Below are positions 13,899-32,801 of a stretch of DNA of 32,801 nucleotides, piece by piece (positions within the stretch are counted from its first letter, which is position 1; each line of letters starts with the position of its first letter). The notes under the pieces were generated by a model. The model saw nothing but the letters and a program-made list of their open reading frames with translations. It was not told the DNA's origin and did not search any database. The translations under genes and the position numbers were made by a program. Origin of the DNA: an uncultured bacterium. Its GTDB lineage: Bacteria; Bacillota_I; Bacilli_A; RFN20; CAG-826. The stretch lies in NCBI GenBank assembly GCA_949297305.1, contig CASFSG010000073.1:1-32801 (forward strand), given 5' to 3'.

Positions 13899-14753
13899 CT
13901 ATTCAACTTCTTCATAATAGTAAGAAGTATCAACTCCCTTAAGGAATAATTCCCTACTATCAATTTCATTAGTCAAAGCGTTTTTTAATAATTCTTTAAT
14001 TTTCACATCAGAATTAGGGCTATCCTTCATTGCGTCGAAATAATCTTTTTTGTCTATCTTAGACCAATCAATGCATTTTTTAAGTTCTTTAATGAAGATT
14101 AAATCGAGCCAAATCTTGGTTGCGCGTCCATTTCCTTCCATGAATGGATGAGCAATATTCATCTCTATATATTTTTCCGCTATTTCATCAAATGTGGATT
14201 GAGGCATCTTATCTATTTGAGAAAGTGTTTGAGGTAAGAAATCACCATTAGCAAATATAAATCCGCCTTTAGAGATTGTTTTTGTTCTTATTTTTCCTGC
14301 AAACTCATATAATCCTTCAAATAAATATGCATGAATCTTTTGAAGAGAAATAGTTTTTCCAACTTCATCTTCATTAATCAAATCAGTCTTATAAAGCTGA
14401 TATGCTTTTCTTTTGCTTTGTTCATCTATTGGATCGAGCATTCCCGTTATCCAATCTAATACTTGCTTTTTGTATTTAGATGGAATGATAGTTAAAAGTA
14501 ATCTAACACCACTCTCATTAATGACATCAGAAACATATTTTTTCCCATCATCTGCGTATAATTTCAGTTGTCCACAAAAAGGAGACAACTCCGGATTTCT
14601 CACCTTAACATTATTCCAATATCTTCTTGGTGAATTCGGTTCAATGAGAATATTTATAAAGTCAACCGCGGAATACCACCACATTGATTGTTCATTATCC
14701 CAAACCGCTCTTACTTCTTTTTTATTAAAATATCTAATTGAGTGTTTTATCAT
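13899..14753 (-). CDS. Bro-N-Fic fusion protein (probable AMPylator)
   Basis: 284 aa from ATG at 14753 (an in-frame ATG at 14771 would add 6 residues). Residues 1-110 match the Bro-N/RhuM-type DNA-binding domain: IRYFNKKEVRAVWDNE, WWYSAVDFI, ELSPFCGQLKL, DDGKKY. The C-terminal half is a Fic domain with an intact catalytic loop HPFMEGNGR (H202), so transfer of AMP or another nucleotide moiety to a protein hydroxyl is expected. No clear (S/T)xxxE(G/N) inhibitory helix is evident. No Shine-Dalgarno site is seen; a TGGACA-N17-TATCAT promoter ends 6 nt before the ATG, implying a leaderless transcript. Dyads cover that promoter. It is probably a self-regulated toxin or defence-type gene; antitoxin not identified. 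Confidence 0.85.
   Translation of the reverse strand: MIKHSIRYFNKKEVRAVWDNEQSMWWYSAVDFINILIEPNSPRRYWNNVKVRNPELSPFCGQLKLYADDGKKYVSDVINESGVRLLLTIIPSKYKKQVLDWITGMLDPIDEQSKRKAYQLYKTDLINEDEVGKTISLQKIHAYLFEGLYEFAGKIRTKTISKGGFIFANGDFLPQTLSQIDKMPQSTFDEIAEKYIEMNIAHPFMEGNGRATKIWLDLIFIKELKKCIDWSKIDKKDYFDAMKDSPNSDVKIKELLKNALTNEIDSRELFLKGVDTSYYYEEVE
14566..14590. repeat. Internal copy of the fic promoter dyad
   Basis: AGTTGTC-N11-GACAACT inside the Bro-N coding part (encoding LSPFCGQL), the same arms and spacing as at 14780-14804, 214 bp away. About 26 of 30 bases match across the two sites. It could be a second operator or the source of a duplicated fragment. Confidence 0.5.
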
Positions 14754-14766
14754 ATTTATATGATAA
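14747..14766. promoter_or_regulatory. 9-bp dyad over the fic -10 and start codon
   Basis: TTATCATAT-TT-ATATGATAA is a perfect 9-bp-arm inverted repeat that covers the -10 (14760-14765) and the ATG (14753). A bound repressor here would block initiation. Confidence 0.45.
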
Positions 14767-22419: not shown

Positions 22420-23448
22420 TTACCAATAATTTGTCACTCTTTCAGCAAACCCAAAGACATCTTCGATATAAAAGGATTTATCGTCGACATTTATTCGACC
22501 TTTAAACTTTCCAAATACTTGATCGCCATGTTGCTTAATGATTAAAGCACTGAGCCGAGTTCGCCTGTCAAGCATTGGCTCAAAAGTTAAATCAATATCA
22601 CCACTAGATGAACGAATTTTCCATGGTTTCATATAATCGAATCCGCCGCGAGAATTTAAAGGGATATCGAATTTGACATCGTTTAATTTATATTGGACAT
22701 TATCATAATAAAAAACATTTTCTGTCGCTTTAGAGGTGTCGCCAAAACCATACCCTAAATTAAAACCAACTAGATGGTTATTGTAACAATCGCTCATCGA
22801 AGACCAATACCATGTATTTTTATATGTCCAAACTCCTCTACCCCAATCTAAAACACCAAATGAATCATCGAGAAAATCAAAATGTTCATCGCCTAATTTC
22901 ATATAACCGCTCGCTTTTAATAAATTGATCTTTTGGTTGTAATAAAAGTGCTTGGGTTTTAAAAAGGGTGTGGCTATTACCATTGTATCTTCTAAAGTTT
23001 CCTCTAAATAAATATCGGCTCTAAGGTCCTTTTTTTCAAAAAAAGATGGAAAGCGAACTTGCAAATGTCTTTTGCCACTATCTTCATGTAAAAATTTAAA
23101 AGACGCTTTTTTATTTTCGTAAATTATATCACCGCCGCGAGAATCGGTTGGTAGATGAAGTTTCCCGCGACTCATAAAGCGCATGACGTTTTTGCTATGC
23201 TCAAAATTCTTTTGGAAATTAAAGAATGTCGCCCCAACAAGCGACATATAAGAATTATCAGCAATTGTCAAGGCAATACCAAAATTTTCATTACCAATGA
23301 AGTAATAATCCCATTCTTTAATTTTAAGATGATTAGTTTTGACATCGTCACGACGATATATTTTCACTAATGATTTTGCAAAACCAGCTTCGCTTAAATT
23401 ACCATTTTGGTCTAATAAGTAACCATCTTTTAAATACTTTGTATCCAT
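22420..23448 (-). CDS. DUF2804 family protein
   Basis: 342 aa, no signal peptide. The sequence is beta-rich with the family's conserved segments: WDYYFIGN near residue 45, GVLDWGRGVWTY, WYWSS, GFNLGYGFGD, and a C-terminal GRINVDDKSFYIEDVFGFAE. This is the DUF2804 family, predicted to be a CrtC/lipocalin-like beta-barrel pair. No reaction is established, to my knowledge. GAGGT (23457-23461) lies 8 nt before the ATG. It precedes the sugar symporter on the same strand, separated by 75 nt with a new promoter, so co-regulation with sugar uptake is possible but unproven. Confidence 0.85.
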   Translation of the reverse strand: MDTKYLKDGYLLDQNGNLSEAGFAKSLVKIYRRDDVKTNHLKIKEWDYYFIGNENFGIALTIADNSYMSLVGATFFNFQKNFEHSKNVMRFMSRGKLHLPTDSRGGDIIYENKKASFKFLHEDSGKRHLQVRFPSFFEKKDLRADIYLEETLEDTMVIATPFLKPKHFYYNQKINLLKASGYMKLGDEHFDFLDDSFGVLDWGRGVWTYKNTWYWSSMSDCYNNHLVGFNLGYGFGDTSKATENVFYYDNVQYKLNDVKFDIPLNSRGGFDYMKPWKIRSSSGDIDLTFEPMLDRRTRLSALIIKQHGDQVFGKFKGRINVDDKSFYIEDVFGFAERVTNYW

Positions 23449-30094: not shown

Positions 30095-31096
30095 TTATTT
30101 TTTCAAAACTTTTAAATATAATTCTTTTAGTCTATAACCAACATTATTTAATGAACGATTTTTTATAACTTCAAAACCGTTTTTGATAATCTGAGAATTA
30201 TCATGCGTTAAAAGATAATTTAGTTTTTCAATAAATTCCTCATTATTTTTTGCTTTATAACAATTATAGTTATCACTTAGCCAATCGCTATAAACTCCAA
30301 TATCGCGAATTAATAATGGGCAATTAGAAGCGAGAGCTTCCAAAGTAACAATGCCTTCGGTTTCTTCATAACTAGGAAAAAATAAACAAGCCGCGTAATG
30401 ATACGCTCCTTTAATAATGTCATTAGAAATATAGCCCGGCATTATCACGTTATTCGGACGATTTTTTATCGCTTTTAAGACATCGATACTCGTCAAGATT
30501 CTTTGCAAATAACCAAACCAAATAAATGTAATAGCGGGAAATTTTGAAGCAACATAAAAGAAATCTTTAATGCCTTTACGATTAAATGGGAAGCCTACCC
30601 CTATCACAACTTTTTGGCCGTCTTTTAAATGAAAATATTCTTGAAATTTTTTAACTTTTTCTTCATCGAAAACATATTCGGAAGGTTCGATGCCATTTGA
30701 GCAAACATATGTTGGGGTATTTAAATGATAATTATCGATACATTTTTTTGAATATTCAGTCGGAGTAATGATCATATCAGCTTGACGATAAAACGATAAT
30801 AAATTAGGATTAAACCATAAAGCCATCACGCGCCATAGGCGGAATGAATTTTTAAAGTCTTCCAGGGTCGAATGACCATGAACGATAACCGGTATACCTC
30901 TTCTTTTGCATTTTTTTAATAATATTTTGCTCTTTGGGAAATAAGTATTTATATGAGCGATATCAAATTGCTCTTTACTAGAAAGTGTATATTCAATTCC
31001 TTGACTTTTAAGTGCCGCTATTTGATGTTTTAAAGCGCGACCAATTCCCGATTTACGTATTTTCTTTTCGTCTTCGAAATACAATAAAACTTTCAT
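30095..31096 (-). CDS. GT4 glycosyltransferase, probable membrane glycolipid synthase
   Basis: 333 aa, GT-B fold. The N-terminus has KSGIGRALKHQ; the C-terminal half has IGVGFPFNRKGI, ADMIITPTEYSKK and the E-x7-E motif E245-E253 in SYEETEGIVTLEALAS. This pattern and length match the alDGS/CpoA type, which adds a second sugar to monoglycosyl-diacylglycerol on the inner membrane face. That function is inferred from resemblance. It is co-directional with GH31 29 nt downstream and likely in one operon. The start has only a weak AGGT site. Confidence 0.85.
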   Translation of the reverse strand: MKVLLYFEDEKKIRKSGIGRALKHQIAALKSQGIEYTLSSKEQFDIAHINTYFPKSKILLKKCKRRGIPVIVHGHSTLEDFKNSFRLWRVMALWFNPNLLSFYRQADMIITPTEYSKKCIDNYHLNTPTYVCSNGIEPSEYVFDEEKVKKFQEYFHLKDGQKVVIGVGFPFNRKGIKDFFYVASKFPAITFIWFGYLQRILTSIDVLKAIKNRPNNVIMPGYISNDIIKGAYHYAACLFFPSYEETEGIVTLEALASNCPLLIRDIGVYSDWLSDNYNCYKAKNNEEFIEKLNYLLTHDNSQIIKNGFEVIKNRSLNNVGYRLKELYLKVLKK

Positions 31097-31168: not shown

Positions 31169-31654
31169 CTATTTAATCGCTAAGAAATTATTATTTTTAA
31201 ATAGACGATTAGACAAAGGATAAATGAATAAAAAGAATGTATTTAAAATAAAGAAACATGTCATTATTTCAATAGTAGGGTCATTAATAAAGAAGACGAT
31301 GCGAATCGTTAATAAAAGCTCAATGGTAATTATCGATAAGAAAGTTATAATCGCTGAAATAATTTTCGCCTTTCGTTTTTTAAATAATAAGCTTATAAGA
31401 TAAGAAATAAAGATAATTTTATAAATTTCAACGATGAATGATAATAATGTTAAAGAAAGAGAGGGCATTTCTAAATCGTTATAAAGAAAATTCATAAAAT
31501 AATAATTAAGTGAGCTTAAATAGATAAAAGGTAAATTTGATAATAATAAAATAATTATTAATGAAATTTTGTAAGCTTTTTGGTCACTACTATTAGGATA
31601 GATATTGCTAATACTTAAAAATGTGGAAATGCATAACAATAAAGAAAGGAACAT
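31169..31654 (-). CDS. Membrane protein fragment (C-terminal part)
   Basis: 161 aa from ATG 31654 to TAG, with about five hydrophobic segments. The same frame is open 34 codons further upstream to the TGA at 31757, and those codons encode another membrane-like stretch (IIYPFLFIFWRDLVDAALLL). No usable start codon or ribosome site is found there. Best read as the tail of the broken gene. Confidence 0.5.
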   Translation of the reverse strand: MFLSLLLCISTFLSISNIYPNSSDQKAYKISLIIILLLSNLPFIYLSSLNYYFMNFLYNDLEMPSLSLTLLSFIVEIYKIIFISYLISLLFKKRKAKIISAIITFLSIITIELLLTIRIVFFINDPTIEIMTCFFILNTFFLFIYPLSNRLFKNNNFLAIK

Positions 31655-31756
31655 ATTTAATAATAGAGCCGCATCAACAAGATCTCGCCAAAAAATAAAT
31701 AAGAAGGGATAAATGATTGAAAGAGAATTATATCCTAAAGAAATAGTTAAAAACGT

Positions 31757-32317
31757 TCAGCGTTTTAGTGGAAATAAAAATGATAGAACGATATTGGCTA
31801 AATAAAGAAAAACGCCTAAATAAAGAAAGCGAATAAATATCTTGATAATTTCGATAATTGGGCTAGATAAATCGAGGGTTAAAATCGACCATGAATAATA
31901 AAAAGATAAATTAGTAGGTTCTAAAAGTACTTGATAACCGACGATTGGAACAACAGCAAAAATCAGAGTTATTATTAATGAAGTAATTTGGGGTGTAATA
32001 TATTTAAAGATATTATCTTTTTTAATTGATACTTCCTTAATCGTAGAATCGCATGTTAATGGTGGATTTATCAATCTAAAAGCAAGGATGAGACTCAAAG
32101 CGAGATAAATTAAAAGTAAACTAAAACCAAGATTAAATAACAAAGGGGTAGATTCAATTTGCTTAAAATAAATACCCAATAAAAATAAATAGAGAAAGAT
32201 TAGGCCAAGAATTATCGATAAAAAACTAACGAAAGATTTTAAATATTTATTTTTGAAAAATGATGATATTTCTAATACCATTAATAGACCACTTGTGAGC
32301 GATAAAGGGGTCACCAC
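31757..32317 (-). CDS. Membrane protein fragment (middle part)
   Basis: 186 aa from GTG 32317 to TGA 31757. The frame is open upstream to 32371 (IFDDNIQDLSIYYNVFIAV) with no ATG. It has about five hydrophobic segments. Its TGA end is unlike the TAA/TAG ends of every intact gene here. Probably the middle of the broken gene. Confidence 0.5.
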   Translation of the reverse strand: MVTPLSLTSGLLMVLEISSFFKNKYLKSFVSFLSIILGLIFLYLFLLGIYFKQIESTPLLFNLGFSLLLIYLALSLILAFRLINPPLTCDSTIKEVSIKKDNIFKYITPQITSLIITLIFAVVPIVGYQVLLEPTNLSFYYSWSILTLDLSSPIIEIIKIFIRFLYLGVFLYLANIVLSFLFPLKR

Positions 32318-32363
32318 AGCAATAAAAACATTATAGTAAATAGATAAATCTTGAATATTATCA

Positions 32364-32801
32364 TCAAAAATTTAATGTAATGAGAAGAATGAAAAAGGGG
32401 GTAGCCATCATAATAAGAACAATAGTAAAAAATAACCTTTTGATTAAAAGAGGGATTTTTAAAGAAGAAAAATAATAGAAAGAAGACAAGACAATGTTAA
32501 TTAAAAACAGGCCATAAATTAACAGATTAACAAAATATAAGATTAGATAATTCGTTGAATTAATTAAAACATGGTGAACATTTAAAGAAATATAATTTAA
32601 ATAGACGGCAAAAATTACCGCTAAGAGATTAAATAGTACACTAATACCTAATAAATGTTTATTAAAAATATCTTTTTTTAAATGAATGAACATGATAACA
32701 AGATTATAAATAGTCATAATTGCAATGAAAGATATAGAAAGATATAAAGGCAACCTATTTTCATAAGACAAAAAATAAATAAAATACATTGGAATCAGGG
32801 A
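32364..32801 (-). CDS. Membrane protein fragment (N-terminal part, open at window edge)
   Basis: The first ATG is at 32789, but the frame is open to the window end (SLIP before MYFIYFL), so the real start may lie outside. About four hydrophobic segments end at TTT-TGA-TGA. Probably the first visible part of the broken gene. Confidence 0.5.
   Translation of the reverse strand, partial: SLIPMYFIYFLSYENRLPLYLSISFIAIMTIYNLVIMFIHLKKDIFNKHLLGISVLFNLLAVIFAVYLNYISLNVHHVLINSTNYLILYFVNLLIYGLFLINIVLSSFYYFSSLKIPLLIKRLFFTIVLIMMATPFFILLITLNF

Follow-up and report, generated by a model that had tools for sequence, protein, structure and literature searches.

Two lesions in one membrane-protein gene of an uncultured bacterium: a probable case of recent gene decay

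The closest parallel to the locus described here is provided by recently formed bacterial pseudogenes, among them the singleton frameshift genes described in PMC3711429. As in that description, the lesions are small and confined to one genome, a close relative retains an intact gene, and past selection remains visible. Our case differs in that the membrane-protein family is nameless and the lesions are known from the assembly only; otherwise nothing sets it apart from the pseudogenes that the source describes. The second system to be considered is the +1 frameshift of the release-factor gene prfB. According to PMC12421855, TTTTTGA serves as the prfB slippery sequence in 21 genomes, mostly of low GC content, and these variants keep the SD-like element and its spacing.

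Our analysis covers a stretch of 32,801 nucleotides (the window), which makes up the entire contig C73 of a 1.22-Mb genome assembled in 93 contigs. On the minus strand, positions 31169-32801 contain three pieces of a single polytopic membrane protein. We conclude that the gene encoding it has most probably been inactivated recently, through ordinary gene decay and not through an unusual reading of the code.

The disrupted gene and its intact relative

The membrane-protein gene is broken in two places only, by a one-base frame change in a run of five T (32366..32370, minus strand) and by a TGA at 31757..31759 (minus strand) that follows the residues PLKR. Piece A, the N-terminal part (32364..32801, minus strand), has 145 codons present, is open at the contig end and ends in TGA; the zero frame across the T run reads AAT TTT TGA TGA TAA. 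Piece B, the middle part (31757..32365, minus strand), is open between the T run and the in-frame TGA, and piece C, the C-terminal part (31169..31756, minus strand), between that TGA and a TAG. Pieces B and C share one frame and are parted only by the TGA, and piece A lies in another. The open reading frames (ORFs) as called were 32364-32801, 31757-32317 and 31169-31654, with the ORF caller starting piece B at a GTG (32317) and piece C at an internal ATG (31654); the frame of piece B is open upstream to the T run, and that of piece C to 31756.

An uncultured bacterium of the same genus (G002, contig CASFQR010000027.1) carries the gene as a single ORF of 572 codons, 76% identical and without stops across query positions 1-543. 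This ORF stands at the same place, beside the same glycosyltransferase and ABC gene. Because it aligns across both breaks, the three pieces belong to one protein and are not a chance arrangement; the original prediction, that one membrane protein had been split by a TGA and a T-run frameshift, is confirmed by the ORF frames together with this alignment. At the T run the frame of the relative is continuous, and neither lesion is common to this one relative with which the gene was compared. The TGA corresponds to CAA (Gln) in G002, a difference at two of the codon's positions.

The gene was found only in its own genome (G000) and in G002 among 58 genomes, own included, and no homologue beyond these two was detected among 245 genomes from the order, own included. 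It is absent from the third member of the genus (G001). A search of a contig collection returned one locus only, that of G002, and a plasmid search returned no homologue. Pfam and NCBIfam searches gave no family match for the pieces in the window, nor for the G002 membrane protein and its upstream partner, and single-sequence structure prediction of the G002 membrane protein yielded a poor model (mean pLDDT 50.2, pTM 0.27). On the contig of the relative (L067, G002:C27), DNA similarity to the window stops beyond about 8287, inside a GH31 gene whose ORF has 1176 codons, against 842 in the window, and runs on to another C-terminus. At this gene, which lies downstream of the region used here, the G002 contig may be a chimera.

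We propose that a membrane-protein gene of ~570 codons, between an ABC exporter and a diacylglycerol-type glycosyltransferase, was recently inactivated by two lesions: a frame change in the T run, some 170 codons in, and a nonsense TGA some 200 codons farther on. Translation would end at TGA TGA TAA just past the T run, leaving a product of ~170 residues from which roughly the C-terminal 70% of the protein is missing. Both lesions are presumably present in living cells.

Selection, lesion frequency and the contig end

Decay is favoured by the intact orthologue at the same place in a close relative, by the absence of the lesions from G002, and by the imprint of past purifying selection. The Nei-Gojobori comparison with G002 (544 aligned codon pairs, 2 containing a stop left out) gave a dS of 0.777, a dN of 0.129 and a dN/dS of 0.167, and the differences fall mostly at third positions (174 of 325). 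By piece, dN/dS was 0.169 for A, 0.183 for B and 0.148 for C, which lies beyond both lesions. Since the ratio is similarly low in all three pieces, selection acted until recently, and the whole length was constrained through most of the period since the species split. The neighbouring glycosyltransferase has a dN/dS of 0.077, and the membrane protein is therefore the less constrained of the two. Random single substitutions create a stop in the gene in 3.4%-5.9% of cases. As a rough estimate from one event, a single nonsense lesion suggests that some 17 to 29 neutral substitutions have accumulated since the gene was inactivated, whereas the differences between the species number about 321.

The frequency of such lesions was surveyed with 300 G002 ORFs of at least 150 aa, for 136 of which a partial sample of the own genome yielded a counterpart that satisfied the filters on identity and on coverage (70%), and for 164 none. 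Four of the 136 genes were flagged. Two were dropped (the L075 gene and that at 22420-23448 of the window), the stop lying upstream of the gene's own start, and two carry a real lesion. The membrane-protein gene accounts for two of the three surveyed lesions, and the third is a TAA in a short lipoprotein-like gene. Were three lesions spread evenly over 136 genes, the probability of two in one gene would be about 0.02, a clustering that makes real decay likelier than uniform sequencing error, though not likelier than locally poor coverage. The lipoprotein-like gene (L088:8180-8629, that is G000:C25:28180-28629, minus strand) carries the TAA within its signal peptide, at a codon that is TTA (Leu) in the sister genome, and is a second candidate pseudogene of this genome.

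Among the readings first offered for the split gene, a recent pseudogene fits best and an assembly error comes second, while programmed recoding and separate genes find little place. Under an assembly or consensus error the gene would be intact, one or both lesions being artefacts of thin coverage or strain mixture close to a branch of the assembly graph; we hold this to be improbable. In its favour, the gene runs off the contig end, its 5' end is found on contig C69 (C69:1-228), and the first 141 bases of C69 are exactly the last 141 of the window. Among the overlaps listed, one of 141 bp also occurs between C41 and the other end of the window and between C14 and C41; 37 whole contigs were compared, 21 of them reading N, with N-to-N matches ignored. 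An assembly graph built on 141-bp words would be expected to leave such overlaps, and the gene thus lies across a break in that graph. Many apparent pseudogenes are assembly errors according to PMC11017572, and the low dN/dS of the membrane protein, on which the case for decay draws, would also be seen in a gene that is still functional. Against an error, this one gene has two different kinds of lesion, compared with a single lesion in the other 135 genes, although local low coverage would itself cluster errors. A single miscall would not turn CAA into TGA unless the true codon differs from that of the relative, and the upstream partner of the gene is missing as well. The T run or the TGA may also represent the allele of a minor strain.

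Recoding and the genetic code

Programmed recoding would produce a full-length protein by a +1 slip at TTT-TGA followed by read-through of the downstream TGA, perhaps as a regulatory switch, and we regard it as very unlikely. The heptamer TTTTTGA (32364-32370) does resemble the prfB site, with a slippery pyrimidine run directly before a TGA and a downstream frame that is +1. On it a tRNA-Phe in the P site could re-pair in the +1 frame, the organism's own prfB uses +1 frameshifting, and constraint is alike before and after both breaks. However, unlike prfB, the site has no SD-like element, since the 35 bases before the TTT codon are without any G; the purine element sought three bases upstream of the slippery sequence was not found at the T5 site. 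The base after the TGA is T and not C, and the zero frame then runs into TGA TAA; a U after the stop codon lowers read-through in E. coli and yeast, as reported in PMC5289835. TTTTTGA is no commoner than chance in the window (22 occurrences against 29 expected from shuffles), and a scan of the window for RGG-N5-YTTTGA gave 0 matches against 1.3 expected, a result of little weight, since the pattern would also miss the organism's own prfB signal. Moreover, neither site is present in G002, the one homologue compared, and the second break further on would need another, unrelated event. What survives of the suggestion that TTT-TGA resembles a +1 slippage site is the motif, which PMC12421855 documents for prfB; the heptamer does not exceed chance and the stimulatory elements are missing. 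A programmed frameshift is rejected on the missing SD-like element and the missing C. Less likely still is a leaky +1 slip at the T5-TGA combined with weak read-through of the second TGA, which would yield a trace of full-length protein and so keep a gene that has lost its partner active at very low dose and not dead.

As for the code itself, the genome encodes RF2 (prfB, 479.6 bits), and prfB bears the canonical CTT TGA C frameshift close to its start. In a 656-kb sample of the genome, 42 kb of it N, TGA ends 66 of the 447 mechanically called ORFs of at least 150 aa, piece B being one of the 66; at a length of at least 200 aa, TGA ends 53 of 393 own-genome ORFs. The corresponding counts for ORFs called mechanically in 393 kb of G002 are 43 of 300 and 34 of 247. 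Within the window, TGA ends none of the other 20 listed genes whose stop is visible, which has a probability of 0.04 at the genome rate and is a mild fluctuation. This gene list was drawn from 28 ORFs by dropping three opposite-strand overlapping ORFs and one duplicate, and one of the dropped overlapping ORFs (14413-14763) does end in TGA. The original prediction had found no other TGA stops on candidate genes; this holds for the gene list of the window, but not genome-wide.

The weakest readings, to which we give almost no credence, are that TGA encodes Trp, for which the 0 of 20 in the window could speak but which is ruled out (as translation table 4) by a prfB with its own TGA frameshift and by the usual use of TGA as a stop here and in G002, and that the pieces are three genes with their own starts, whereas the sole intact homologue found is a single ORF to which the starts at 32317 and 31654 are internal. 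The original prediction would have fallen had homologues occurred as three separate genes, and this homologue points the other way. Read-through with Trp, which had been considered for the TGA, is also contradicted by the relative, whose residue at that codon is Gln and would therefore not be restored.

The upstream partner and the neighbouring genes

If the membrane-protein gene has indeed decayed, its surroundings suggest a context for the loss. In G002 a gene of 492 codons, whose product has a signal-peptide-like start, ends 6 bp before the membrane-protein gene. No match to this partner was found in the own genome (assembly 94% complete, part reading N). Both genomes keep the leader as far as the ribosome-binding site, and between this conserved leader (to GGAGGT) and the start of the membrane-protein gene there are 58 bp in the own genome, against 1485 in G002. 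The 58 bases resemble the 5' and 3' ends of the G002 gene, with 3 and 17 of 1000 simple shuffles scoring as high. They have some look of a deletion remnant, in a sequence that is AT-rich and short. The partner may have been lost here or, alternatively, gained in G002. We infer that the membrane-protein gene and its upstream partner formed one functional unit, and that loss of the partner would have relaxed selection on the membrane protein.

The leader is itself of note. Its last ~50 bases are near-identical in the two genomes (about 287-350 of L028, on G000:C69, and L067:1410-1472 in G002), ending ATTGGGATATATATGGAGGT, and conservation ahead of the absent partner gene is above that of the coding parts. 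G005 and G042 encode distant relatives of the partner, with no large membrane protein flanking them in the 9-10 kb examined. Two proteins of ~460 aa with signal-peptide-like starts (L112:2713-4113 and L113:3386-4759) are distantly related to the G002 partner; neither has a Pfam match, and each is followed by a lipoprotein-like gene on the same strand.

The genes on either side of the disrupted locus give a hint of its function. Upstream, on contig C69, lies the ABC exporter, and on the other side is an intact GT4 glycosyltransferase (30095..31096, minus strand), which scores 430.5 bits against the IagA/BgsA family, below the cut-off of 460. It is close to diglucosyl-diacylglycerol synthases, and its G002 counterpart is 88% identical and adjoins the same membrane-protein gene. 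Given its position next to this glycolipid-synthase-like gene, the membrane protein may act in the cell envelope. The glycosyltransferase is present in 14 of 39 genomes (E up to 1e-40), and at the 13 loci outside G000 and G002 it has different genes around it within some 1.5 kb. In one genome (L026 and L027, G005:C42:5226-6175) the glycosyltransferase homologue is split into two ORFs near residue 180.

In annotation, the three ORFs should be entered as a single disrupted gene and not as three proteins, and the genome should not be assigned a modified genetic code. Beyond that, the locus may illustrate the ongoing loss of a two-gene membrane unit of narrow distribution, with one gene absent and the other carrying two lesions.
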